Of a DNA stretch of 64,000 bases, positions 20,941-41,832 are shown in pieces. The stretch's first letter is position 1; every line of letters starts with the position of its first letter. Origin of the DNA: Gemmatimonadaceae bacterium. Lineage in GTDB: Bacteria > Gemmatimonadota > Gemmatimonadetes > Gemmatimonadales > Gemmatimonadaceae. The notes below the pieces were generated by a model. That model did no database searches. It had not been told where the DNA came from and worked only from the letters and a program-made list of their open reading frames with translations. The stretch is taken from assembly GCA_013817305.1 (NCBI GenBank), contig JACDCY010000003.1, positions 1 to 64,000 on the forward strand, read 5' to 3'. The position numbers and the translations under genes are program-made.

Positions 20941-22434
20941 TTAATTCTGGTCCGTTTTGCAGGCGCTCCGTACGAACGACGGGTTGTTCTCCTCGTCGAA
21001 CGGAACCGGATAGTTGACGTCGGTTCCGAACGTGGCACCCCTGAAATGAGGGCCTGTCGGCCACACCGAGCTGGAAGCCAGTCCGTAGTTACGAACCAGC
21101 CGGCGCAGGTCTCCCTGCCTGTGACCCGTGTTGTACATCCAGAACGCGCGCTCACGGAAGATCATGTCGCGACGCCCGGCGGTCGTGCCCGGATCCGTGA
21201 GGGGGTCCAGCGTCGGAATGCCGATCACCGGGAACGTCTGCTTTGCCCGCGGATACAGAATCGTAAGACGAGCGGACGTGTTTGCACGCAGGTCGTTGAG
21301 CCTCGCCATCATCGTCACGAAATCCCCGGCCTGGAACGCGGCCTCGGCCTCGATCAGACGGGCTTCGACGCCCGACGCAACCGGAACATCAGCTTCGAAA
21401 TCCGGATAGTTGTTGTTCATCCAGCAGCGGACGGACGATGTGAAGCAGTTCGGGCGGTTCCTGTGCGGAATCCGCGGGTCCTCGGCGCCACGGAAGGGAA
21501 GTCCTTCCGCGCCGGGGGCTGTGGTAGGCGGCGCAGCCGTGCCGCTCGTGGGAGCATCCGGACGGCTGGTTCCCGTCGGACTATCCGCTCCTTCCAGGTT
21601 AGAGATGCCATAACGGCCGTTGGACTGCAACGAGAAGACAGGATTGTTCTCGTCTGACGTGTTGGGCGAGTGCTCGATGAAGAAGACGAACGTCGTCGGG
21701 ACCGCCGCCACGGCGGCCGCAGCTTCCGCGTACCGCCCAAGGTTCAGCAGCGCCCGGCCCTTGCCGACCGCCGCAAGCCGGTTCGCCGAGCTGCGGGCAA
21801 GAGCCTCGTTGAACCGTACCACGGCCGTATCGTTCATCTGATTCGTGCTGAGCGGAGCCCCGAACTCGATCAGACCGGGATCGAGCGGACCGGTATCGGG
21901 AATGCGGCTGAACGGCACCGCACCGCACCACCCCTCGCTGAACGTTACGTAAGTGTAGCCCTCGATCGTGCGGAGCTGCGCCTGCGTACCCGCGTCGGCG
22001 GTAGCCGTCGCCGGGGTGCTGAATTGCTCGACGACCGCGAACGCGCGGCGCGAGTTCAGCCGGGCCTGGTGCAGCCGGGTGTAGGCGGCGTCAGAAATGT
22101 TGCCCAGTACCGGAGGCTGCAGCCTCCGCTCGTCAGCCCCCTGGCGCGTGGTGAAAGTGTCGCCGTAGTACCACTCGTCCGTGATCACGGCCGACGCGGA
22201 CAGGAAGGCGTCGCCGCCGAATCCGCTGTAGCCACCGCCGAACTGGCGCAAGGCGCCATTGACCAGCGCCGGCACTGCCGCCAGACCGGTCAGGTCTTCC
22301 GGCCGCAAACGCTCCGGATCCGTCACGGCCACGATCTCGTCGGTGTTGCACGCGGCAAGAGGCAATGCCATCACCGCCACGATAGCCAACCTGGGAAGGG
22401 CCCGTAGGCCCCTCCCTCTATAGTAAAGATTCAT
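20941..22434 (-). CDS. SusD/RagB-family outer membrane nutrient-binding lipoprotein (locus 1)
   Basis: Surface lipoprotein that captures a nutrient over the SusC channel, 497 residues. Signal peptide with lipobox MALPLAAC and lipidated C29. The rest is SusD-like: TPR-type helices in the N-terminal half (for example AYTRLHQARLNSRRAFAVVEQF, ALLNLGRYAEAAAAVAAV) and, near the C-terminus, the family block DMIFRERAFWMYNTGHRQGDLRRLVRNY. The frame is open beyond ATG 22434, but that extension overlaps susC and lacks the lipobox context. It follows SusC by 17 bp. Substrate unknown; in Bacteroidota such pairs import glycans or peptides. Confidence 0.92.
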   Translation of the reverse strand: MNLYYRGRGLRALPRLAIVAVMALPLAACNTDEIVAVTDPERLRPEDLTGLAAVPALVNGALRQFGGGYSGFGGDAFLSASAVITDEWYYGDTFTTRQGADERRLQPPVLGNISDAAYTRLHQARLNSRRAFAVVEQFSTPATATADAGTQAQLRTIEGYTYVTFSEGWCGAVPFSRIPDTGPLDPGLIEFGAPLSTNQMNDTAVVRFNEALARSSANRLAAVGKGRALLNLGRYAEAAAAVAAVPTTFVFFIEHSPNTSDENNPVFSLQSNGRYGISNLEGADSPTGTSRPDAPTSGTAAPPTTAPGAEGLPFRGAEDPRIPHRNRPNCFTSSVRCWMNNNYPDFEADVPVASGVEARLIEAEAAFQAGDFVTMMARLNDLRANTSARLTILYPRAKQTFPVIGIPTLDPLTDPGTTAGRRDMIFRERAFWMYNTGHRQGDLRRLVRNYGLASSSVWPTGPHFRGATFGTDVNYPVPFDEENNPSFVRSACKTDQN

Positions 22435-22451
22435 TTTTATAATCTCTGATG

Positions 22452-25400
22452 TTAAAGTCTGAAGTCGAACCGGAGCGTGAACGTGCGCACGGGCGGCTGC
22501 GTATTGAACTCGCCCTGCGTGAAGTTCGTACCGCCGCCGGTCTCGTTGATCTCGGGGTCGAGGCCGGTGTAATCCGTCCAGGTCCCGAGGTTGCGTCCGG
22601 CGAACGACAGCGCCGCGCCTCTCAGCGCGCCGATACGGTTGGAGACAGCTTCCGGCACGCCTACGCGCAGCGAGAGCTCTCTCCACTTCACGAACGTGGC
22701 GTCCTCGATGTAGCCGAACGGGGTCGCGCCCATGAAGCGCGCGCCGATGAACGCAGCCTGACTCTCCAACGAAGCGTCGGGATTCGACAGGGCCCCGCAC
22801 TGGCCGTACACCGGATTCGCGTCCAGCGTCGTGCAGCGGAATCGCTCGGTGTAGTTCAACTGCTTATGCCCGGCACGGCGCTCGAACAACGTCGAGATCG
22901 TGACGTTGCGGACGAGCGTGAGCGCGAGGTTCAATCCCTGCGTATTCGTCGGAAGGCTCGGTCCGACGTACGCGATCGTCAGCGTGTCTATGCCACCCGT
23001 AGCGTTGCGTACGCGAAGGAACTTGGACGTATCCACAGTGACTTCCAAGCGCGACAGCTTGCCGTCGCCGTTCGCATCGTTGAACTTGATCGGAGCCGCG
23101 AAAAACGCGCCCGTCGGGAAGCCTTCCCGGTGAGCCTGGGCGCCGCGGTTGAACTGGATCGGGGCGATGCCCTCTCCCAGCTCGTCGATCCTGTTGCGAA
23201 GCGTCGTAGCCGTCAACCGGATATCGAAACCGACTCGCTCGGTGTTCAGCGCGTTGACGTTGAGGCCGAACTCCGTGCCCCAGTTCTTCACGCTTCCGAG
23301 GTTCTGGAAGACCGTGCCCGTTAGGCCCGACGAGGGCGCAAGGTTACGCGAAACAAGCGCGTCCTGGGACTCCCGGGTGAAGACAGTGACCTCCGTCGAG
23401 ATCCGGCCGTCGAAGAAGCCGGCGTCGAAGCCGCCCTCCAACTCCGTAGTGCGCTCGACCTTGAGCCCCTGGTTACCCGTGCTCGTCAGAACGAGCGCCG
23501 GGCTCTCCGCGCCGCCCAATTGGATCGCGCGCGAGCTGAAGAAGGTCTCGGCGTCGCCAAAACCGGGACGCTGCCCGGCCTGGCCCCAACCGGCTCTCAG
23601 CCTGAGCTCGCTGATCAAGCCGATACGCGGGAAGAACGATTCGCGCGATACCAGCCACGAAGCGTTGGCGGAAGGATAGTAAGCCAGGCCGGACACGTCC
23701 CGGACCAGGCCGCTGTTGTTGTCGGCGCGAACGCTCGCCGACAGGAAGAGGCGATCCGCGATGGCAAGCTCCTGCCGTCCGAATCCACCAACAGTCTTCA
23801 GATCCGAAAACGCTTCATCGACCGCGAACTCACGCGTCGTCGAGCCGCAGGAACCTGTACCCGCGGGAACGCCGACGCCGTAACAATCAACGTTCTCGAA
23901 CAGGGCCCGCTCGTACGCGCCACCGAGAGTGGTCGTGGTGATCAGCGACTGCATCGGCTGGAACTTCGCCGAAGCGGAGGCGTTCGAAGTCCACAGGTAG
24001 TTGTTGGACCTGGTCGCGCTCCGGTTGCCAGCCGTAAAGGACGACGCGATTGGCAGCACGTTCGGATCGAGCGACAGCCGGTCGAACCGGCCGAAGTAAT
24101 CGAGTCCGACGTTTCCGTTGACGCGCAGCCAGGACAGCGGGGTGTAGTTCCCGTTGGTCCCGACGACGAATCTGTCGAGCGTCTGGTCCGTCTTGTACTT
24201 CCGCTGGTCGGCCGTATTGAATCCGAAATACGACGCATTTCTGGCACCCGCAACGCCAACCGTGTCGGACTCCATCCCCGGGATGTACTGCGACGGTCCG
24301 AGGAAGGCGTTGATGAGCGGGGAGAAAATGCTGTTGTCATTCGATATCCGCTGGGTCTCGCTGCGGATGTACGTACCCGTGACGGCCCCGCTCAGCTTGC
24401 TCCCGAAGCGGGCGTTCAGGTTGGTCCGGAGGCTGGTGCGCTTCACGTCGTTGGGCCGAAGTACGCCCAGCTCCTTGTCGCGATCGCCGGAGACGAAGTA
24501 CGTCACCATGTCCGAGCCGCCGGACACGTTGATGCCGGTCTTGGCGCGTGAACCGGTCTGGTACGGCGTGGTCCGTGAATCTTCGAACTGGTCGAAGCTC
24601 TCCAGTACATCCTGTCTGCAAGTGCCCAAAGCACGGGTGTAGTTCGGGCAGATCGTGTAGGCCGTGAGCCCCCACCTCGTGATGTTCAGCAGGCCGTCCG
24701 TGAGATGCGTGGGCTGCGTCGGGTCGTTTGCCTGGAGCGCCGCGTAGTTGTGGGGGTACGGGCTCTCGTCTTTGAAGCTCGACCCTTCCACGTACATGCG
24801 CCACTGCGGCGCGCCCGCCTGGCCGCGCTTGGTGGTGATCAGAATGACACCGTTGCTGGCCACGCTGCCGTACAAGGCCGCAGCGGCCGGACCCTTCAGG
24901 ATGTCGATGTTCTCGATCTCCTCGGGGTTGATGTCGTTCAGGCGCGAGTAGTCCTGCCCGCCGAGGGAGTAGCCGCCCGAGGAGTTCGACGCGCGGACTC
25001 CATCAATGAAGATGAGCGGCTCGTTGGACAGCGACAGGCTGTTGGCTCCGCGAATCCGGATCCGCTGGCCGCCGCCGGAAGTACCGGTCGCGCTCTGGAG
25101 CTGCACTCCGGCCACGCGGCCCTGGAGCACGTCCGCCAGCTTCGTGATCGGTCCCTTCTGCAGCGTGCTGACGTTGATCTGTCCCACGTTGGTTCCGATC
25201 TCTACGCGGCGCTCCTGCGCGCCGGTGACGGCGCTCACCACGACTTCCTGCAGGGTCAGCGCCGACTCGGTCATGACGAAATTCACCGAAGCGGTCGCTC
25301 CTGCGCCTACCGCCACGCGCTCGGACATCGGCGCATAGCCGACGCGGCGGGCGCGAACTTCATACGTACCTGCGGGAACGCCGCGGATCGTAAACCGGCC

Positions 25401-25583
25401 TTCGCGGTCGGTCATCGAACCACGCTGCGTGCCTGCTACTTGCACCTGCACTTCGGGCAGCGGCCGCCCGCTCGCGCGGTCGGTGACTACGCCGGCGATC
25501 GTGCCATCGTCCTGGGCAGCGAGCCCGGCCGGCAGTAGCGCTACGGCGAACGCCGCCAATAGGACTCTCACTAGTCTGGTCAT
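22452..25583 (-). CDS. SusC/RagA-family TonB-linked outer membrane receptor (locus 1)
   Basis: Outer-membrane TonB-dependent channel, 1043 residues. Signal peptide ending GLAAQDD; carboxypeptidase-regulatory-like domain (about 25-105; GRPLPEVQVQVAGTQ...GTYEVRARRVGYAP); plug domain with EPLIFIDGVRAS and ending SNGVILITTKRG; then a 22-strand-type barrel ending FTLRFDFRL with a terminal aromatic/leucine strand. ATG 25583 has a strong ribosome-binding site (GGTGGAGAAGAG) and gives the signal peptide at residue 1; a longer frame upstream does not. Paired with SusD downstream. Asn/Ser-rich loops suggest surface exposure. Confidence 0.95.
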   Translation of the reverse strand: MTRLVRVLLAAFAVALLPAGLAAQDDGTIAGVVTDRASGRPLPEVQVQVAGTQRGSMTDREGRFTIRGVPAGTYEVRARRVGYAPMSERVAVGAGATASVNFVMTESALTLQEVVVSAVTGAQERRVEIGTNVGQINVSTLQKGPITKLADVLQGRVAGVQLQSATGTSGGGQRIRIRGANSLSLSNEPLIFIDGVRASNSSGGYSLGGQDYSRLNDINPEEIENIDILKGPAAAALYGSVASNGVILITTKRGQAGAPQWRMYVEGSSFKDESPYPHNYAALQANDPTQPTHLTDGLLNITRWGLTAYTICPNYTRALGTCRQDVLESFDQFEDSRTTPYQTGSRAKTGINVSGGSDMVTYFVSGDRDKELGVLRPNDVKRTSLRTNLNARFGSKLSGAVTGTYIRSETQRISNDNSIFSPLINAFLGPSQYIPGMESDTVGVAGARNASYFGFNTADQRKYKTDQTLDRFVVGTNGNYTPLSWLRVNGNVGLDYFGRFDRLSLDPNVLPIASSFTAGNRSATRSNNYLWTSNASASAKFQPMQSLITTTTLGGAYERALFENVDCYGVGVPAGTGSCGSTTREFAVDEAFSDLKTVGGFGRQELAIADRLFLSASVRADNNSGLVRDVSGLAYYPSANASWLVSRESFFPRIGLISELRLRAGWGQAGQRPGFGDAETFFSSRAIQLGGAESPALVLTSTGNQGLKVERTTELEGGFDAGFFDGRISTEVTVFTRESQDALVSRNLAPSSGLTGTVFQNLGSVKNWGTEFGLNVNALNTERVGFDIRLTATTLRNRIDELGEGIAPIQFNRGAQAHREGFPTGAFFAAPIKFNDANGDGKLSRLEVTVDTSKFLRVRNATGGIDTLTIAYVGPSLPTNTQGLNLALTLVRNVTISTLFERRAGHKQLNYTERFRCTTLDANPVYGQCGALSNPDASLESQAAFIGARFMGATPFGYIEDATFVKWRELSLRVGVPEAVSNRIGALRGAALSFAGRNLGTWTDYTGLDPEINETGGGTNFTQGEFNTQPPVRTFTLRFDFRL

Positions 25584-25852
25584 ACTCTTCTCCACCTCTC
25601 TGTCATACGTGACCGAAATGCCCAATGCGACGTGCAAAGCACACGTAAAAACGCGTGCCTCACTGTCGTTTGGGAGGGTACTACGAGTTTGCTGCGGGGA
25701 TCTCTGCTACTACTGCGGGACCTGCGAACAACAAAGACAATTTTTCCGTCAGGTCAGGGCCTCCTGCGGTTGGGGGATGATTTAAGGTACTGCCAGGCCA
25801 CAAGAACGTCTAGTCAATATTTTAAATTTTTGTTTACCTCTGGGCCGGACCC
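25584..25852 (-). other. AT-rich leader before susC locus 1
   Basis: 269 bp without a gene. The segment 25815-25841 is clearly AT-rich against the local background and probably contains the promoter of the minus-strand susC, but I could not place -35/-10 boxes with good spacing. No terminator-like hairpin is seen after the upstream plug-only gene. Confidence 0.3.
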
Positions 25853-26998
25853 TCATTTGAGGTCCGACAACACTTCCCGCCGGGGGCCGAAATCGACCCG
25901 CTGCCGCACGAACTGGCGTACAGGCCTCCCATCCTTCATCGCAGGGACGAAGACGGATTCTTGGATTGCCCTCGCGACCGCCGTGCCCAGGAGGCGGTGG
26001 CTCGTAGAGACGACCGTGAACGTCTCGGGCTCGACTTTCCCCGACGTGTCAACTACGAACTCGGCGGTCAGAGAGCCGCTGATCGTATTGGCGTGAAGCT
26101 CGGGCGGGTAGGCTGTTCGAAGTCGCTCCGGGCTAAGAAGCTCGGCGCGCTGGTCCACCTGGTCGGCGGTGTACACCGCCATCGAGCTCACGAGCCTCTC
26201 GAGATCAACGCTCGACCGCTTCGGCGCGCTCGGCCCTTCGGTATCCCGCCCGCGGGACCAAAGCATGATCGATCCGCAGGACGAACGGCGGTTCTGGGCG
26301 GTGTATTCAATCGGAGTGTTCGAGGCACCGAGATACAACTCCACACCGTGCAACGTGTGTAGCGGGAAAGCATCCAGATCTACGTCACCGATCGGCATCG
26401 CTACACCGTCGATCCAGACCAGCGGTGGGCAGTTGTTCCTGTTCCGCATCCGCACGACGCTTCCCCCGCTCATAACCGGCCAGCGTCTCACTCCGGGGCT
26501 GGCCGCGAGGAGCTGGCTCAGCGAGCGGGACTCGTCGACTTCGATGTCCGCACGTGTGATGAATTGACCGGTGCCCCTCTGCTCCAGTCGTTGATAATAG
26601 CCCGCAAGCCGGCCGGTGTACCGCATGCGCGTCCGCTGCACGGTGACCTGATCCAGCATGGCTGGGAGTATGGCGAGCACAATGCGCACGCGCTCCGGCG
26701 TAACCCCGCTGGCTATGTTCACGAATGCACTGGCGGGAGCGTAGCCAAGTCGTCTTGCCGCGATGTCCACGCCGCCCGGCTGCAAGCCGATGAACCGGAA
26801 CTCGCCGCGCTCGTCACTTCGGGTTTCGTGACCCGTGCCGGGGGTCGATACCAGCGCACCATATATGGGGAGGCCTTCCGAGTCCGTCACGACGCCGTTG
26901 ATCGCGGCGGTACCCTGCGCGCCTACCGATCCTGCGGCAAACAACGCCGTGGCGAGGAACGCAAACAATACCGGGTTGAAGCGCCCCCGCGAGGTCAT
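25853..26998 (-). CDS. Plug-only protein B: carboxypeptidase-regulatory domain, TonB-receptor-plug-like domain and TonB C-terminal domain
   Basis: Exported protein of 381 residues without a barrel. Signal peptide (FAFLATALFAAGSVGAQ), a carboxypeptidase-regulatory-like domain (about 30-110; GVVTDSEGLPIYGALV...GGVDIAARRLGYAP), a segment resembling a TonB-receptor plug (SLSQLLAASPGV, CPPLVWIDGVAM, SCGSIMLWSRG) and a C-terminal TonB_C domain (about 300-375; GSLTAEFVVDTSGKVEPETF...VFVPAMKDGRPV). The plug ends where a receptor would begin its barrel. Cysteines flank the IDG strand and the final IMLW strand. Tandem paralogue of protein A, whose stop it overlaps by 4 bp. Function unknown. Confidence 0.85.
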   Translation of the reverse strand: MTSRGRFNPVLFAFLATALFAAGSVGAQGTAAINGVVTDSEGLPIYGALVSTPGTGHETRSDERGEFRFIGLQPGGVDIAARRLGYAPASAFVNIASGVTPERVRIVLAILPAMLDQVTVQRTRMRYTGRLAGYYQRLEQRGTGQFITRADIEVDESRSLSQLLAASPGVRRWPVMSGGSVVRMRNRNNCPPLVWIDGVAMPIGDVDLDAFPLHTLHGVELYLGASNTPIEYTAQNRRSSCGSIMLWSRGRDTEGPSAPKRSSVDLERLVSSMAVYTADQVDQRAELLSPERLRTAYPPELHANTISGSLTAEFVVDTSGKVEPETFTVVSTSHRLLGTAVARAIQESVFVPAMKDGRPVRQFVRQRVDFGPRREVLSDLK

Positions 26999-28146
26999 TT
27001 GTTGCTCGCCCCGACCTGCGGCGGACCGAAGTCGAACTTCTGGCGCACGAACTGCCGCACGGGCTTGCCGTCCTTGAGCGCGGGAGTGAAGGTCGATTCT
27101 CCGATCGCCCTGGGGACGGCTGTCGCCAGGAGCCGATGCGTGGTAGAGACGACCGTAAACGTCCCAGGCTCGACCTTGCCTGTCGCGTCTACCACGAATT
27201 CCGCGGTTATGGAGCCGCTGATCTTGCTCGCATGCAGTTCGGGCGGGTAGGCGGCCTGCAGCTTCTCCCTGTTCTGCAGCTCGGCGCGCTGGTCCACCTG
27301 TTCGGCCGTGTATACCGACATCGAGCTTACGAGCCTCTCCAGATCGACGATCGAGCGCCTGGGCGTGGTCGGGCCCTCCGTATCGCGTCCGCGGGACCAG
27401 AGCATTATCGACCCGCAGGACGAGCGGTTGTTCTGGGCGGTGTGTTCAATCGGCGCGTTCGAGCCACCGAGATACAACTCCACACCGTGCAACGTGTTTA
27501 GCGGGAAAGCATCCAGATCTACCTCGCCCGCCGGCATCGGGACTCCATCTATCCAGACCAGTGGCCGGCACGCCCTGCCTCGCATGCGAACCGCGCCGCC
27601 GCCGCTGCGCAGCGCCACCCTGTTGATTCCCGGGCTGCGAGAGAGAAGCTGGCTCAGCGATCGGGACTCGTCCCTTTCGATGTCCGCTCGCGTGATGAAC
27701 TGGCCGCCGGATCTCTGATCGAGCCGCTGATAGTATCCGGCGAGCCTGCCAGTGTACGACATGCGCGTCCGCTGGACCGTGACCTGATCGAGCAGCGCGG
27801 GAAGGGCGGTGAGCACGATCCGCACGCGCTCCGGTGTGACGCCACTCGCGAGGTTCACGACCACACTCGTGGGGGCGAAACCGAGACGTCGCACCGCGAT
27901 GTCTACTCCGCCCGCCTGCAAGCCGACGAACCGAAATTCGCCGCGCTCGTCGCTCCGCGTCTCATGACCGGTGCCGGGGAGCGCTACGAGCGCACCGTAT
28001 ATGGGGAGACCTTCCGGATCGGTAATTACCCCGTTGATCGCAACGGTGCCCTGCGCGCCTGCGGACGCGACGACAAGGGAAATGGTCAATAAAGACGAAA
28101 ACAGTAGCGACCTACGGCCAAGCCGCGATCTCCCTGGCGCTGTCAT
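26995..28146 (-). CDS. Plug-only protein A: paralogue of protein B with TonB C-terminal domain
   Basis: Same order of domains as the next gene, 383 residues: signal peptide (SLLFSSLLTISLVVASAGAQ), carboxypeptidase-regulatory-like domain, plug-like domain (SLSQLLSRSPGI, CRPLVWIDGVPM, SCGSIMLWSRG) and TonB_C (GSITAEFVVDATGKVEPGTF). The two proteins align end to end without large gaps and are mostly identical by eye, so this is a tandem duplication. ATG 28146 has AAGGAGG at ideal spacing; a longer frame adds about 23 residues without support. The stop overlaps the ATG of protein B (ATGA). First gene of the A-B-SusC-SusD row. Confidence 0.85.
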   Translation of the reverse strand: MTAPGRSRLGRRSLLFSSLLTISLVVASAGAQGTVAINGVITDPEGLPIYGALVALPGTGHETRSDERGEFRFVGLQAGGVDIAVRRLGFAPTSVVVNLASGVTPERVRIVLTALPALLDQVTVQRTRMSYTGRLAGYYQRLDQRSGGQFITRADIERDESRSLSQLLSRSPGINRVALRSGGGAVRMRGRACRPLVWIDGVPMPAGEVDLDAFPLNTLHGVELYLGGSNAPIEHTAQNNRSSCGSIMLWSRGRDTEGPTTPRRSIVDLERLVSSMSVYTAEQVDQRAELQNREKLQAAYPPELHASKISGSITAEFVVDATGKVEPGTFTVVSTTHRLLATAVPRAIGESTFTPALKDGKPVRQFVRQKFDFGPPQVGASNK

Positions 28147-34608: not shown

Positions 34609-35985
34609 TCAGGGGCAGGCGTTCGGATCGTTCTGGTTTCTCGCCGGTTGAGCGGACGGTTCCGGAATGTTCGGATTCGCGTTTCTCTCCACGAGCGGAT
34701 ACAGCAGGCGCGAGGGGATCGCCGTGCGCCCTGGAGCTGGCGTCAAGCGAGGCTCGCAGTTCCTCTTCCAGTAATTCCACACCTCGATGTTCTGGAACAT
34801 CGTGATCCACTGCTCCACCGCTATCTCGCGCAGCGTGACCGTTGCGACCGGCAGACGCCCGGTAGCGGTGCGGACCGCGTTGAGCGCGGTGAGTGCTTCC
34901 GCCGTATTGCCGGCCCGGAAAGCGGTTTCGGCAATGATCAGCTGGGTCTCGGCCCACGTCACGACCGGCTGACGGAAATCCCCGTCGTAGTTCGGCCCGC
35001 CGTAGCGCGAAGCGCTCAGGAAAGCCGCGCTCTGGTTGCCTTCACCAGGCGCCGACCCAACGTCGCTGTCAAAGTACGCGGCGCACCACTCTTCCCCGCT
35101 CGCACAGTCGTCCAGCACCCGCGGGTCCCCGCGGTTGGACATCGTATCAATGAGCGTCGCGCTGCCCCTGAGGTACGAGTCACGCTCGATCAGCATGAAC
35201 TGATACCAGATATTCAGCTCCGAGCCGGCCGTTCCATGATAGAACGTGAAATCGTTCGCAGGCGTGCTGATTCCCTGCTTCGCGGCGGCGTTGGCCGCAG
35301 CATACGCAGTGGCGCCGCGGACTTCGGCCGTCGCCAGGTGATAACGGGCCTTGAGCGTCCACGCCGCCTGACGCCAAGCTGTCATGTCGCCGCTGTAAAT
35401 GAGATCCTGCGCGCCGGGGGCCGCGCCTGTCGCGGTGCCGGCACTGGTAATGCCAGCGCTGAGCAGAGTCTGCAGCGCGTCGTACACTGCAAACTGCTTG
35501 TCCAGCACGGGTGGCGTACCGTCGTTCTTCAGCGCCGCCGAATACGGCAGGTCACCCCATACGCCAGCGGCCGTACCGACGGACAGCGCTTCCATGATCT
35601 TGGAGATTCCAACCCATCGCGGCGATGCCTGCTTCGTAGCCAGCTCCGCCATCAGGCGCAGGTCCTTGATCCCGCCACGCGCGAAGATGAAACCCCACTC
35701 AGGCGAGTTGTCGTCCTCCGATACCGAATAAATATCGTAGGAGTTGTACTGCCGGTCGGTTCCCGCACACTGCTGCATCCACATGCACACGGTCCGGGCG
35801 ACGTTGCCTTCCTGTACCAACGCCTGGGCCGAGTGAATCGCGACGAAATATTGTCCCGGGCTGAGCGCCTGGGTCTGAATGTTCGGATCCTCATCCAGCT
35901 TGGCGCCGGAGAGCTCGAACGAATTGCAGGAGATGAGCGCGAAACTCGCCGCCGCTCCCAGCAACCCTCTGAATGTTCTATGCAT
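34609..35985 (-). CDS. SusD/RagB-family outer membrane lipoprotein (locus 2)
   Basis: Surface nutrient-binding partner of the upstream SusC, 458 residues. Lipobox ALISC with lipidated C20. Helical repeats appear in the N-terminal half (SAQALVQEGNVARTVCMWMQQC, RLMAELATKQASPRWVGISKIMEAL), while the C-terminal half has the SusD block TAEALTALNAVRTATGRLPV and REIAVEQWITMFQNIEVWNYWKRNC. It is not closely similar to the locus-1 SusD by eye, so the two loci probably take up different substrates. Starts 14 bp after susC and is followed by a clear terminator. Confidence 0.92.
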   Translation of the reverse strand: MHRTFRGLLGAAASFALISCNSFELSGAKLDEDPNIQTQALSPGQYFVAIHSAQALVQEGNVARTVCMWMQQCAGTDRQYNSYDIYSVSEDDNSPEWGFIFARGGIKDLRLMAELATKQASPRWVGISKIMEALSVGTAAGVWGDLPYSAALKNDGTPPVLDKQFAVYDALQTLLSAGITSAGTATGAAPGAQDLIYSGDMTAWRQAAWTLKARYHLATAEVRGATAYAAANAAAKQGISTPANDFTFYHGTAGSELNIWYQFMLIERDSYLRGSATLIDTMSNRGDPRVLDDCASGEEWCAAYFDSDVGSAPGEGNQSAAFLSASRYGGPNYDGDFRQPVVTWAETQLIIAETAFRAGNTAEALTALNAVRTATGRLPVATVTLREIAVEQWITMFQNIEVWNYWKRNCEPRLTPAPGRTAIPSRLLYPLVERNANPNIPEPSAQPARNQNDPNACP

Positions 35986-35999
35986 TGATTGGGTCTCCG

Positions 36000-38900
36000 T
36001 CAGCGGCTGAGACCGATCGAAAACACAATCGACCGGGTCTGCGGGTTATTGAAGTAGTCGACTCCGCGGTTCGCGACCTCGGCGCCGCCCAGGTTGGTCT
36101 CCGGGTCGATGCCGGTGTAATCGGTCCACGTCCTGAGGTTGCGTCCGGCGAGGCGCAGGTCGATCGCGCTCAGGCCCAGGCCACGGAAAATCGCGGGGTT
36201 GCTGAGCGTGTAGCCCACCGAGATCTCACGCAGCTTGACGAAGCTCGCGTCCTCGAAGAACTGCTGGGAAACGGCGCCGAAGCCGGAGCCGAGTCCTTGG
36301 TACCAGGACTGGTCGATCTTGACGGTGGTGCCCACTCCGGGTCCGCCGACCGCGCCCGAGCAGTTCGGGCAAGCAGGCATGTAGTTCGTTCCGAACTTGA
36401 CATCGACGTTCCGGAACTCGGTGTCCTTGTGCGTGCCGAAGTTATATAGCGCGCCCTTCGTTCCATTCCAGATGTCGCCGCCCTGCTTTATGTCCACAAG
36501 GGCGGTGAGCGTCAGCTTGCGAAGCAGCGTAAAGCCGGTACGAACGCTGCCGGTCCAATCGGCATTCGGATCACCGAGGATGCGGTTCGTCGGATCCTCG
36601 ACCGGGAAACCGTTCGTGTCGAGGAACAGCGCTCCCTTCGGCGCGCTGCCGCAGAGGGCGTCAACTTCCCGCCCGTCTTCGGTCCGCAAGCCGCGGCCGC
36701 AACGGACGAAGTCCTGCCCTCTCAGGATCGGAAGTGCAGAGCCCTCGAACGCGCTGCCGGCAGCGCCGGTGAACGACCCCGCCGCACCCTGGACATCGAT
36801 GAACTCGGCGCCCGCGAGATCCAGAACCTCGTTGCGGTTTCTACCGAAATTGAAGCCGAGGTCCCAGGCGAAATTGGGACGTGTGATCGGGCGGACGTTG
36901 AGGGATACCTCTACGCCCTTGTTGCTAATCTTGGCCGCGTTCGCAGCCTGCTGCAGATAGCCCGTACCCGCCGGTGAAATCGGCAGGAACAGAATGACGT
37001 CCTCGGAACGCGAGTTATACCAGGTGAAGCTCAGATCCGCGAGGTTGCGGAAGAGTCCCACGTCGAAACCGGCCTCGAGCTCCTTGGAGCGCTCGGGACC
37101 GAGGTTCGGCTGCGGCGCCGTGATGCTGCTCGCCAAACCACCCTGACCAGCCTGGCTCGTGCTCAGGCCGAAGAAGCTCAGCCACCCGTCATAGAACGAT
37201 CCCGTCGCCAGGCCGCTGATAGTAGCGTAGACCGGCGGCTCCTGCCCCGCTTCGCCGTACGCCACTCTGAGCTTCCCGCTCGGAATCAGGCCGCCCATGC
37301 CGAAACGATCGCCGAAGTTCCATGCAGCGCTCACCTTCGGGAACCAGTGCCGCTGCTTGCTCTTGCCGAACGTGGAGAAGCCGTCATTCCGCAACGAGCC
37401 CGTAAGGAAGACCTGGTTCCACAGATCGACGGTCGTCTGCGCAAAGTACGACTGCGCGTGAATCAGGGACTCGAATTCGTCGGTCGTGAGGTTCGTCGCG
37501 ATCGTGTTGTCGAGCTGGAACGGCTCCGGTGCCACGAGCGTTCCGCCCTGCGCGAAGAATTGCTTGAACCGGCGGCTGTTGAGGTTCTGGCCGAGGGTCA
37601 AGGTTCCAGCCAGCCACGGATTGAACGTACGCGTTCCCGTCAGCAGCAGGTTGTGATCGATGTTCAGGTTGGTGAACGTCACACGATTGACGCGGCCCGA
37701 GCCGCCCGGATCGCTGGCGGTCAGGGGAAAGCCTTCCAGGCGCTCGTCGGCGTAGTAATCGGCGCCCATCGTCCACCGCGCCGTAAGCCAATCGATCGGA
37801 GTGTATTCCGCATTAATGTTTCCAAACGTGCGGCCGACTTCACCAGTGTTGCGGAAGTCGTTGACCACGAAGAACGGGTTGTCGTAGCCACGCGCTCTGG
37901 TCTGCGACGTTCCCGTCGGATTCGGATAGCGGTAGGACCGGTGCAATCCGAACAGGGTGTCGCGGAACATCGCGTTGTTGAACTCGGGCGGGGTGCGAAG
38001 ACCGCCAAGGAGCAGGCCGCTGATGTTGGATCCCTTCTGAATGAAGGCGCCACGCGAGTCCACAAATGCCACGTTGCCGCCGACGTTAAGCCTATCGGTC
38101 ACGCGATGCGAGCCCTTCAAGCGGACCGAGGTGCGGTCGTAAAAGTTGTTCGGGCCGATGATGATGCCCTTCTGGTCCAGGCGCTCGGCGGAGATGTAGA
38201 AGAGAGTACGCTCGTTGCCGCCGGAGATGCTGATCACATTGTCCACCGTCGAGCCCGTGCGGAACAGCTCTCCGAAGTGGTCGTACGTAGCCAGGCCGGC
38301 CGGAATCGCGGGGCCATAGCTACCACCCGTGAGCGTGCCGCAGCCGAGCGACGTGCAGCGGAAGCTGCCGACGCCGTTGACCCGGTACTGGATCGGCGTG
38401 AGGCCGCCCGATCCGTGCGCGAACGACCGCTGAAGCGGATAGTCGCTGTTGACTTCGTCCGTGGAGATGGTCGAGCGGAAGGAGTAGCGGGTGGGGCCTG
38501 GACGGCCGCTCTTGGTGGTGATGAGGATCACGCCCTGACCGGCGCGCGCTCCGTAAATGGCCGCGGCCGCAGCGCCCTTGAGGATCTCGATGTTCTCGAT
38601 GTCCGCCGGATTGATATCGGCCGCGCGATTGGGCGCCGCCGTGCTGGCCGTGGACGAGCCGGTCGCGATGGTCGAATTGTCGATCGGCTGGCCGTCGACG
38701 ACAAACAGCGGCTGGCCGCTGTTGTTGAAGCTGCGTCCGCCGCGAATGCGGATGTAGGACGACGCGCCCGCCTCACCCGAAGCCGAGCTCACTTCAACGT
38801 TCGGCGCCTTGCCCGCGAGCGCATTGACGACGTTCGACTCATTACTGCGCTGGATCTGCGTCGAATCGACGGTGCTGCGAACGTGGCCGAGCTTCTCGAC

Positions 38901-39275
38901 CTGCGTCGTCGTGCCCGCGCCGGTGACTACCACTTCGCCGAGGCGGAGGGGATTGAGGCCGAGCACGAAGTTCTGCACGATGGTGCCTGGGCTCAGCGTA
39001 ATACGCGCAGAGCTGGCACTGTAGCCGATGCGGCGACTGGTAATCGTCACCGACTGGCCACTCACCATGCCGCCGGGTACGGCGAACGAGTACGAGCCGG
39101 ACTCATTGGTGGTCGATCCGACGTTCAGGCCCTCGATGAACACCGCGGCACCGGGGATGGCGTTGCCGCCTTGCGTGGTGACCCGGCCCGAGACCGTCGC
39201 CTGCTGCGCCAGCAGCATGGCCGGCGTCAGCGCGGTGACTAACAGTGAGATCACGAACTTGCGGACGGATTTCAT
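36000..39275 (-). CDS. SusC/RagA-family TonB-linked outer membrane receptor (locus 2)
   Basis: TonB-dependent channel of 1091 residues. Signal peptide (VISLLVTALTPAMLLAQQ), carboxypeptidase-regulatory-like domain (about 25-110; GGNAIPGAAVFIEGLNVGST), plug domain (VVTGAGTTTQVEKLGHVRST, GQPLFVVDGQPIDN, GQGVILITTKSG) and beta-barrel ending TRSIVFSIGLSR. ATG 39275 has AGGAGGAG just upstream. The TonB-box-like segment near residues 110-125 (GEVVVTGAG) is normal. Together with SusD it should import a specific oligomer; nothing here shows which. Confidence 0.95.
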   Translation of the reverse strand: MKSVRKFVISLLVTALTPAMLLAQQATVSGRVTTQGGNAIPGAAVFIEGLNVGSTTNESGSYSFAVPGGMVSGQSVTITSRRIGYSASSARITLSPGTIVQNFVLGLNPLRLGEVVVTGAGTTTQVEKLGHVRSTVDSTQIQRSNESNVVNALAGKAPNVEVSSASGEAGASSYIRIRGGRSFNNSGQPLFVVDGQPIDNSTIATGSSTASTAAPNRAADINPADIENIEILKGAAAAAIYGARAGQGVILITTKSGRPGPTRYSFRSTISTDEVNSDYPLQRSFAHGSGGLTPIQYRVNGVGSFRCTSLGCGTLTGGSYGPAIPAGLATYDHFGELFRTGSTVDNVISISGGNERTLFYISAERLDQKGIIIGPNNFYDRTSVRLKGSHRVTDRLNVGGNVAFVDSRGAFIQKGSNISGLLLGGLRTPPEFNNAMFRDTLFGLHRSYRYPNPTGTSQTRARGYDNPFFVVNDFRNTGEVGRTFGNINAEYTPIDWLTARWTMGADYYADERLEGFPLTASDPGGSGRVNRVTFTNLNIDHNLLLTGTRTFNPWLAGTLTLGQNLNSRRFKQFFAQGGTLVAPEPFQLDNTIATNLTTDEFESLIHAQSYFAQTTVDLWNQVFLTGSLRNDGFSTFGKSKQRHWFPKVSAAWNFGDRFGMGGLIPSGKLRVAYGEAGQEPPVYATISGLATGSFYDGWLSFFGLSTSQAGQGGLASSITAPQPNLGPERSKELEAGFDVGLFRNLADLSFTWYNSRSEDVILFLPISPAGTGYLQQAANAAKISNKGVEVSLNVRPITRPNFAWDLGFNFGRNRNEVLDLAGAEFIDVQGAAGSFTGAAGSAFEGSALPILRGQDFVRCGRGLRTEDGREVDALCGSAPKGALFLDTNGFPVEDPTNRILGDPNADWTGSVRTGFTLLRKLTLTALVDIKQGGDIWNGTKGALYNFGTHKDTEFRNVDVKFGTNYMPACPNCSGAVGGPGVGTTVKIDQSWYQGLGSGFGAVSQQFFEDASFVKLREISVGYTLSNPAIFRGLGLSAIDLRLAGRNLRTWTDYTGIDPETNLGGAEVANRGVDYFNNPQTRSIVFSIGLSR

Positions 39276-39485: not shown

Positions 39486-40577
39486 TTATCGCGGCAGCTC
39501 GTGCGCCCGGTACCGCGTCCAGATAACGACCACTCCACAACGCGAGCGCCGGCCGAGAAACTGCGGCGGAATCTCGCTGGCCTTGTACACCTCGATCGCC
39601 TCGATCTGGTCGGGGGCCATGTCCCGATCTATGCCCAGCGATGTGGGCGTGTACTCGTGGCCGTTGACGTAATAATCGAGGCTGCAGCCGATGGCGCCGC
39701 CACTCGCGCGGGTGCTCGAGGGAGTGGTCTGGTGCCCCCACCGGGTCATCACGGTGTGCACTTGTATCCCCCCGACGGAGCGGAGCACGTCGGTCAGCGT
39801 CTGCGGTCGCATCCGGTCCAGCGCTGCGCGATCGAAAAAAGCGCCCGTGCCGCGACGACGACGCTCGCTAAATCCGCTCGTCATCTCGAACGCGCCCGGA
39901 CGCGCTGCCACGGTCACGTCCCGCAGCACGGCGGCGATCGGCTCCAGAATCAGATCCAGCACCGGCGGAGAGGGTCCGGCGGCGACCTGAAGGGTTCTCG
40001 GCCGGTACCCGAGCCGGCGCACGACAAGGCTCACGGCTCCTGCCTGGGGGACTGCCAGCTCGAATCGCCCCGCATCGTCGGACAAGCCCGCCGGCCCTTC
40101 GCCCACGCTGATCCGCGCACTCGGAATCGGTGCGCCACCGCTATCGCGAACGACGCCCTGCACGAACGCCGGGCGCGCCCGCGCAGGAAGCGTTGGCGCC
40201 GGCTCCAGGGGAAGCGTCACGGCGCCCGTGTTCCTCCCTGGAGGAACGGTGACGACCGCCACCGTACTGCCGCCCAGGGTCGCCCGGAACGTTATGGAAG
40301 ATTTTCTCGGAAGCGCGCAGAACCGGTACTCCCCGACGGCGTTCGCCACGACGCTGGCGGTGCGGACTTGATCGATGAGCGAGTTCCCGGAAACACGCCA
40401 ATCGGTCCAGGCGGCGCTGATTTCTGCGCCGGGTACCCGCGCGCCGGAAATGTCGCGGACTACGCCGTGGACCGAACGGCTGTCGCCGGCGGGGGCATTG
40501 CCGGTGCACAGTTGCGCCGCCGGCGAGGTGCCCGGCGCCAGGCATGCCAACACGAACATGGGCACAACGACTCTCAA
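39486..40577 (-). CDS. Plug-only protein C: two carboxypeptidase-regulatory domains and a plug-like domain
   Basis: Exported 363-residue protein without a barrel. Signal peptide (VVVPMFVLACLAPGTSPAAQ), a first regulatory-like domain (GVVRDISGARVPGAEISAAW), a second (GVVRDSGGAPIPSARISVGE...RRLGYRPRTLQVA), then a plug-like part (QTLTDVLRSVGGI, CSLDYYVNGHEYTP, CGVVVIWTR) that stops after the last plug strand. It lacks the TonB_C domain of proteins A and B. I prefer TTG 40577 with GAAGGAT about 8 nt upstream, because this puts the signal peptide first; an ATG at 40778 would add 67 poorly signal-like residues and overlap ricT. Lies directly upstream of the second susC. Confidence 0.78.
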   Translation of the reverse strand: MRVVVPMFVLACLAPGTSPAAQLCTGNAPAGDSRSVHGVVRDISGARVPGAEISAAWTDWRVSGNSLIDQVRTASVVANAVGEYRFCALPRKSSITFRATLGGSTVAVVTVPPGRNTGAVTLPLEPAPTLPARARPAFVQGVVRDSGGAPIPSARISVGEGPAGLSDDAGRFELAVPQAGAVSLVVRRLGYRPRTLQVAAGPSPPVLDLILEPIAAVLRDVTVAARPGAFEMTSGFSERRRRGTGAFFDRAALDRMRPQTLTDVLRSVGGIQVHTVMTRWGHQTTPSSTRASGGAIGCSLDYYVNGHEYTPTSLGIDRDMAPDQIEAIEVYKASEIPPQFLGRRSRCGVVVIWTRYRAHELPR

Positions 40578-40665
40578 TGGGGCATCCTTCGTTGACTGCT
40601 TCCTTACTACCTTGGGTAGGCGCCGTCCGCGTGTCAAGTAATCGCAAGGCCGCAAAGTGTTACTT

Positions 40666-41832
40666 ATGACCCCTACGCAACCCGGACTTCCGGGCAGCGC
40701 ATTCTCAACCCGACTGTCCCGGTCCATGGCCGATCTGATCGAAGTCGCTTTCGTCGGTAATCGCAAGGAGTTCTTCACCTGGGATGGCCCCGAGCTGCCC
40801 GCAGTGAAGGCTCCCGTAATCGTCGACGCCGACCGCGGCGAGGATTTCGGCTATGTGCACGCCGTCGGCGAGCTGGCCGAGAAGCGGAGTCGCGGGTGCG
40901 CGCATGGCTGCGGCCACTCCGCCGGGACCAGCGAGCCCGCCACGCCGGCCCGCCGCGCGCTGCGGATCGCGAGCGACGCCGACGTGCGGCAAGCAGGCAG
41001 CATGAAAAAGCTGAGCGCGGACGCGCGCAGGCAGGCAGCGGAAAAGGTGAAGGGTGCCGGGCTGCAGATGAAGATCTCCGACGCGGAATGGCAGTGGGAC
41101 CGGCGCAAGCTGACACTGTACTTCACCGCGGAGAAACGCGTCGATTTCCGCAATTTGGTGCGCGACCTCGCGGCGCTGTTCAAGACGAGGATCGAGCTGA
41201 AGCAGATCGGCGTTCGCGACGAGGCGAAGCGTCTTGACGGGATCGGTCGCTGCGGCCGCCAGTATTGCTCGGCGTCGTGGCTGCCGGAGCTGCGGCCGGT
41301 CAATCTCGGCGTGGCCAAAGATCAGCGACTCTCGCTCAATCCCTCCCAGATCTCCGGTGCGTGCGGCCGCCTGATGTGCTGTCTCAGGTACGAGCACGAG
41401 ATGTATGTCACGGCGCGGAAGCGGTTCCCCAAGGAAGGTCGCACGTTCACGACGCCCAAGGGTGAGGAGAAGGTTATCGCCAACGACATCTTCCAGGAGC
41501 GCGTCACTTTGCGCGCCGTAGAGGGCGAGCTAAGAGTGCTCAGTCTGGCGGAGTTCGCGCGGGAGACTGGTTTCGTGTCGGCCGCTCCCTCGGTTGTGAG
41601 CGAGTCCGTCGCCGACGCCGCCGCCGGGGCCGCGGACGACCTCGCGCTCGTGGAAGAGCTGATAGCAGAAGAGTCCGGCGGCACGGAGCCCGTTGCTCCG
41701 GCGGACGTTCCCGAGACGGGATCGCTCTTCCCGGCGGCTTCCGCCGAGGAGCAGGCCCAGGGCGCTGCCCGCCGGCGGCGGCGCGGACGCCGCGGCGGGC
41801 GCAAGAATCGTGGCCCCAAGCAAGGCGACTGA
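40666..41832 (+). CDS. ricT: PSP1-domain protein, RicT/YaaT family
   Basis: Cytoplasmic regulator, 388 residues. RicT is part of the iron-sulfur RicA/F/T complex that controls mRNA processing in Bacillus. The PSP1 domain runs from about residue 110 to 250 (MKISDAEWQWDRRKLTLYFTAEKRVDFRNLVRDLAALF). Cysteines matching the cluster region are in CAHGCGH, RCGRQYCSASWL and CGRLMCCLRYEHEMY. The C-terminus is extended by a Lys/Arg/Gly-rich tail (RRRRGRRGGRKNRG). The N-terminus could also begin at ATG 40726 (ADLIEVAFVGNRKEFF). It is followed 2 bp later by metG; ricT and metS also lie in one region in Bacillus. Partners RicA and RicF are not in the window. Confidence 0.88.
   Translation: MTPTQPGLPGSAFSTRLSRSMADLIEVAFVGNRKEFFTWDGPELPAVKAPVIVDADRGEDFGYVHAVGELAEKRSRGCAHGCGHSAGTSEPATPARRALRIASDADVRQAGSMKKLSADARRQAAEKVKGAGLQMKISDAEWQWDRRKLTLYFTAEKRVDFRNLVRDLAALFKTRIELKQIGVRDEAKRLDGIGRCGRQYCSASWLPELRPVNLGVAKDQRLSLNPSQISGACGRLMCCLRYEHEMYVTARKRFPKEGRTFTTPKGEEKVIANDIFQERVTLRAVEGELRVLSLAEFARETGFVSAAPSVVSESVADAAAGAADDLALVEELIAEESGGTEPVAPADVPETGSLFPAASAEEQAQGAARRRRRGRRGGRKNRGPKQGD

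Follow-up and report, generated by a model that had tools for sequence, protein, structure and literature searches.

Two neighbouring genes, A and B, in a 64,000-nucleotide stretch of a Gemmatimonadaceae contig (the whole of the DNA analysed here, referred to below as the window) encode exported proteins that carry a receptor plug and a TonB tail on a single chain. In transport of this kind across the outer membrane, energy passes through a contact in which plug and TonB tail face each other. We find that A and B represent a branch with TonB tails within a family of barrel-less plugs that spans the phylum and is probably stapled by a disulfide, a relationship that the initial annotation of this DNA had missed. 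The combination that it had pointed out is itself real and conserved: a phyletic search for the domain order regulatory-like/plug/TonB_C recovered the same fused architecture in many genomes, with 44 genes at 41 loci, a recurrence that argues against a chance arrangement.

The locus comprises four minus-strand genes, which run B, A, SusC and then a SusD-like gene. The positions first given for A and B proved exact (the ATG of B at 28146, the stop of A at 25853), and a full-length SusC lies directly downstream. The features of the locus are as follows.

26998..28146, minus strand: protein B (383 aa), comprising a signal peptide, an NTE/CarboxypepD_reg-like domain, a Ton-box-like linker, a plug with Cys194/Cys244 and a TonB C-terminal domain (Pfam, AlphaFold2 model, Foldseek, alignment A1)
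27808..28053, minus strand: NTE/CarboxypepD_reg-like beta-sandwich, B residues 32-113 (PF13620, 3.3e-13; Foldseek matches to carboxypeptidase D and the SusC NTE 9hfj)
27772..27804, minus strand: Ton-box-like LLDQVTVQRTR, B residues about 115-125 (V-x-V pattern; segment largely predicted to be disordered)
27394..27756, minus strand: plug domain with no barrel after it, B residues 131-251 (PF07715, 7.8e-12; Foldseek match to CirA)
27565..27567, minus strand: codon of Cys194, first of a co-varying cysteine pair
27415..27417, minus strand: codon of Cys244, second of the co-varying cysteine pair
27019..27276, minus strand: TonB C-terminal domain, B residues 291-376, with beta-3 VRQFVRQKFDF (PF03544, 6e-9; Foldseek match to 6i97_D; group comparison)
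25853..26998, minus strand: protein A (381 aa), tandem paralogue of B with the same architecture
22452..25637, minus strand: complete SusC/RagA-type TonB-dependent receptor with its own NTE, TonB box and plug (TIGR04056, 7e-136)
20941..22440, minus strand: SusD-like lipoprotein partner (PF07980, 2.3e-3, a weak Pfam match; TPR matches)

The TGA of B overlaps the ATG of A in an ATGA, and the two proteins are 76% identical (dN 0.17, dS 0.87, dN/dS 0.19, with a dN/dS of 0.24 to the orthologue at locus L074); both copies are under purifying selection. Since some 270 bases separate A from the probable start of SusC, co-transcription of A and B with SusC stays putative. The Pfam score of the SusD-like gene is below the cut-off, and its place after SusC is also kept in L074 and L076. 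The tandem arrangement noted at the outset is real in the window but local, and was rejected as a conserved feature, as orthologous loci have one copy: the nearest of them run aminopeptidase, one fused gene, susC and susD in that order. The genome also encodes ordinary TonBs with proline-rich linkers, one of them beside ExbB/ExbD, so that a Ton system exists that could be modulated.

Counting Pfam matches that score above the gathering threshold, we identified all three domains in A (CarboxypepD_reg 4.1e-13; Plug 2.0e-7, 31.9 versus 23.9 bits; TonB_C 7.4e-10, 39.6 versus 24.6 bits) and in B (CarboxypepD_reg 3.3e-13; Plug 7.8e-12; TonB_C 6.0e-9). The NCBIfam model of the TonB family C-terminus, TIGR01352, fell below its cut-off, narrowly in A (26.7 versus 27.1) and at 20.7 in B. 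An AlphaFold2 model of B alone, generated with 31 homologues in the alignment, has a mean pLDDT of 80.8 and folded domains at residues about 34-111, 136-251 and 269-373, joined by linkers at 118-130 (pLDDT < 50) and 260-266 that are predicted to be disordered; the pTM of 0.40 leaves the mutual placement of the three domains undefined. Foldseek matched the N-terminal domain to the transthyretin-like domain of carboxypeptidase D and the SusC NTE 9hfj, the plug to those of CirA and BtuB (CirA rmsd 2.6 over 116 columns), and the tail to the TonB C-terminal domain 6i97_D of the FoxA-TonB complex (rmsd 1.5 A, 91 columns, TM to target 0.87), and a profile search of the PDB agreed with these identities. 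The proposed order of regulatory-like domain, plug and TonB_C is thus borne out, both by Pfam and by the predicted folds, with a plug fold in the middle segment (PF07715; CirA/BtuB) and a TonB_C fold at the C-terminus (PF03544; 6i97_D).

No outer-membrane beta-barrel was detected by Pfam in A or B, or in the model of B, the chain ending after the plug and TonB_C, and a hydropathy scan makes a membrane segment in either mature protein unlikely, in keeping with what the initial annotation had stated. The hydrophobic N-terminus, which is the sole hydrophobic segment of each protein, resembles a cleavable signal peptide (AGA-QG, VGA-QG); a lipobox-like string occurs in 3 of 44 homologue N-termini, for which start sites are uncertain. 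The proline-rich, periplasm-spanning linker is absent from A and B, and NTE and plug fill its place.

We searched 298 genomes of the phylum, in which full-length matches (NTE, plug and TonB_C) were found solely in family f1, very probably the Gemmatimonadaceae of the phylum Gemmatimonadota, and shorter matches ending with the plug were found phylum-wide. A denser search of 59 f1 genomes placed full-length members in at least about 32 of them, among the matches listed. At E 1e-55 neither the 51 f2 genomes nor the 35 f7 genomes searched gave a fused protein, as compared with scores below 1e-67 for the f1 full-length matches listed. A contig scan reaching close relatives only gave no more than two weak NTE-like matches, and within the scope of these searches a wide spread across phyla was rejected. 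A tblastn match in a plasmid collection fell on a 1,106,233-base plasmid of Gemmatirosa kalamazoonensis.

We aligned 44 fused proteins with 32 plug-only proteins and 23 receptors. In the tree of NTE and plug, all 44 fused proteins fall into a single clade (100/97, 100% of bootstraps) and the 23 receptors into a clade of their own (100/100), with plug-only proteins in between. In the tree of TonB_C alone, the fused tails also form one clade (88/94, 82% of bootstraps, from few columns), apart from a group of TonBs and M56-like proteins. Because the N-terminal half and the tail each form one clade, the combination would have been fixed once and then kept, and the simplest history suggested by the sequences is that a free plug and a TonB tail were joined once within this family, and that the fused gene was then duplicated and passed on vertically.

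The plug-only relatives are complete proteins, sometimes encoded in tandem, with an export signal, one or two NTE-like domains and a plug that ends at CGxIxIWTR; A and B share the features of such barrel-less CarboxypepD_reg-plug proteins (export signal, NTE, the ending CGxIxxW[ST]R, the cysteine pair and no barrel). As judged from the alignment, 68 of the 76 barrel-less plugs have both cysteines and the other 8 have neither, with no case of a single one (0/76), and none of the 23 receptors has both; across alignment A2 (24 sequences) both are invariant. Such an all-or-none pattern is the one expected of a disulfide, and we infer that Cys194 and Cys244 form a predicted disulfide that would let the plug fold outside a barrel. 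The pair sits in the C-terminal part of the plug, past a stretch of about 50 residues following the Ton box, which is the first to unfold when BtuB is placed under force (PMC5413942). Since the isolated FepA plug has been reported to be unfolded, according to a review (PMC11658791), a staple of this kind would make sense for a free plug. The fused members that seem to have lost the two cysteines together are those at L083, L084, L090 (both), L097, L107 and L112 (both).

The window contains a third barrel-less plug, at 39489-40778 on the minus strand, which the initial annotation had also passed over. It has two NTE-like domains and a plug with the cysteine pair, has no TonB_C, and lies directly upstream of the window's second SusC/SusD pair (36000-39275, 34609-35985); its AlphaFold2 model has a pLDDT of 70.3, with the C-terminal part well predicted. 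Runs of two to three tandem plug-only proteins are found elsewhere in the phylum (L151:4997-7512, L160:4834-6549, L108:10995-13963).

In the FhuA-TonB complex, the receptor's TonB box is paired with beta-3 of the TonB C-terminal domain (PMC11658791). The fused tails have a beta-3 pattern of VrQlVqlPFxF, as compared with VkQLVQqPFvF in the family's own TonBs, and their beta-3 profile overlap with these TonBs is 0.65, against 0.25 for a lipoprotein-like TonB_C group in which the pattern is lost. The strand is also kept in M56-like TonB_C proteins, which implies that its retention is not specific to transport. On the receptor-like side of the chain, between NTE and plug, the 44 fused members retain a V-x-V Ton-box-like pattern, which aligns with the TonB box of SusC. 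In the SusC Bt1763 the box VDEVVV is essential and is placed after the NTE; box and NTE both matter for growth on levan, and a role for the NTE in choosing among TonBs has been suggested (PMC7782687). Docking of the Ton-box-like segment on the tail in cis was not seen in the AlphaFold2 model of B, in which the linker has a pLDDT < 50 and the pTM is 0.40.

TonB_C domains also end large proteins at L136, L166, L171-L173, L176, L163 and L164, several of which have starts resembling (putatively) M56/BlaR-type peptidases, with one ORF at L163 carrying two TonB_C domains. Small lipoprotein-like proteins (about 150-180 aa) with a divergent TonB_C and no beta-3 pattern are encoded at L118, L120, L121, L127, L130, L132 and L133. 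In Bacteroidota, M56/BlaR-like proteins may join TonB_C and plug domains.

SusC/SusD genes adjoin 18 of the 44 fused genes (15 of 41 loci), on the same strand, with the fused gene mostly just upstream of susC and sometimes after susD; three more fused/SusC pairs were identified from coordinates (G048:C79, G040:C52, and G039:C1 near 1.087 Mb). By our own arithmetic from about 15 SusC per genome, chance adjacency would be roughly 0.8% per gene (<1%). Adjacency is present throughout the orthologous group made up of L074, L075, L076 and the window, and as a label it changes five times on the tree. Distances between these neighbours track the distances between their SusC partners (Mantel r 0.72, 0/5000 permutations), a signal that shared vertical descent could give and to which it contributes. 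As read from these gene neighbourhoods, adjacency to SusC appears far above chance and partner-specific. No adjacent SusC was found for 26 of the 44 sampled members, which have mixed, heterogeneous surroundings; with so many orphans, a strict dependence on SusC was rejected.

In one genome (G126, L090:6200-13291) the order fused gene, susC, susD, fused gene lies between alanine dehydrogenase and MreB, and in another (G028, L107:9388-10560) a single fused gene lies between alanine dehydrogenase and the following gene; the comparison suggests that the SusCD pair may have been lost and one fused gene retained. In another branch, fused genes lie between susC and a gene for a GDSL-lipase/TPR protein (L105:4571-5761, L106:6408-7568, L102:9501-10730), assigned by Pfam in L102 and L106, with dnaE close by in L105 and L106, as in the window.

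What these proteins do can be proposed more tentatively. We favour, with less than even confidence, a role for A and B as a periplasmic adaptor or competitor at the contact between TonB and SusC. They would be soluble periplasmic accessory proteins of TonB-dependent transport, each uniting the whole periplasm-facing half of SusC (NTE, Ton-box-like motif and plug) with a TonB C-terminal domain. The tail would add a Ton box to its sheet as an extra strand, with the box of the adjoining SusC as its first target, and a real TonB could in turn hold the Ton-box-like motif of A or B; A and B might in this way tune, by buffering or relaying, the access of energised TonB to SusC, with the NTE perhaps conferring specificity. 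The net effect may be inhibition or relay, which look alike in sequence. The retained beta-3, the retained V-x-V pattern and the SusC neighbourhood support the hypothesis, raised in the initial annotation, that such proteins bridge, compete or gate; the 26 of 44 members with no adjacent SusC, together with the presence of TonB_C in M56-like and lipoprotein-like proteins, argue against a mandatory role with SusC.

The main rival, which we regard as somewhat unlikely, holds that the modules have been taken over as general binding domains in the periplasm (for example in peptidoglycan or protein scaffolding), outside Ton energy transfer, the SusC neighbourhood being incidental or regulatory. It is kept alive by the orphan members with their heterogeneous neighbours and by the promiscuity of TonB_C here, in M56-like and small lipoprotein-like proteins, and it finds a parallel in the TonB-like SjdR of Anabaena, for which a peptidoglycan role has been proposed (PMC8597729). 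However, the fused tail retains the edge that binds Ton boxes, which the lipoprotein-like group has lost, and a SusC adjacency far in excess of chance and specific to the partner also speaks against this rival. Improbable, in our judgement, is a role as a spare or decoy plug, entering or capping the SusC barrel from the periplasm to gate it and using the TonB tail as a handle: a complete plug fold beside SusC, in the NTE-box-plug order of SusC itself, would suit this role, but the adjoining SusC has an intact plug of its own, the tree separates free plugs from those of SusC, a SusC neighbour is missing for many members, and the probable disulfide would resist the remodelling needed for gating (compare PMC5413942). 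We think it very improbable that the proteins assemble with one another, the Ton-box-like motif of one copy binding the TonB tail of the next (B-A-B...) to build a chain or lattice in the periplasm; a single polypeptide does carry a conserved donor motif and a conserved acceptor strand, and the window has tandem, translationally overlapping paralogues, but most loci have one copy and no cis contact is predicted. That A and B are decayed receptor remnants or annotation artefacts, as a plug with no barrel might lead one to think, is scarcely credible and, as truncated receptors, refuted, given the low dN/dS values, a plug that ends at the conserved CGxIxxWSR motif, and 44 intact relatives in one separate clade with paired cysteines.

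A broader reading, which we consider rather unlikely, is that Gemmatimonadota possess a separate layer of TonB-dependent transport, in which free disulfide-stapled plugs with a Ton box, one branch of them carrying a TonB receptor-binding domain, make up a network in the periplasm that relays energised TonB to SusCD transporters or competes for it. A conserved family of free plugs, probably stapled by cysteines and in one branch joined to the TonB tail, would demonstrate that a plug can exist without a barrel around it, and would provide a natural tool for asking how few TonBs serve many receptors. For annotation, many proteins of the phylum labelled 'TonB-dependent receptor plug' or 'carboxypeptidase regulatory-like' should be read as complete proteins and not as receptor fragments.

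We found no papers on barrel-less plugs or plug-TonB_C fusions in the open-access literature; TonB_C and receptor domains are already known together from the MxcH model, and it is the barrel-less fusion itself for which we found no precedent. In MxcH-type receptors (NF038079), whose first 90 positions are matched by the tails of A and B, TonB_C stands in front of a full receptor, whereas in A and B it stands behind the plug and there is no barrel. With SusC/RagA receptors (TIGR04056) A and B share the order of NTE (PF13715/PF13620), Ton-box-like motif and plug, but they lack the barrel, form a separate clade and have an added TonB tail, and the cysteine pair of free plugs is missing from the receptors. 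With TonB energy transducers (PF03544) they share the C-terminal fold and beta-3, their closest domains being TonBs and TonB-like domains of the same bacterial family; unlike TonB, they have no evident retained N-terminal anchor or proline-rich spacer, and a signal peptide is followed by NTE and plug. With the barrel-less CarboxypepD_reg-plug proteins of Gemmatimonadota they have in common the export signal, NTE, plug ending (CGxIxIWTR) and cysteine pair, to which the branch of A and B, limited to family f1, adds TonB_C.
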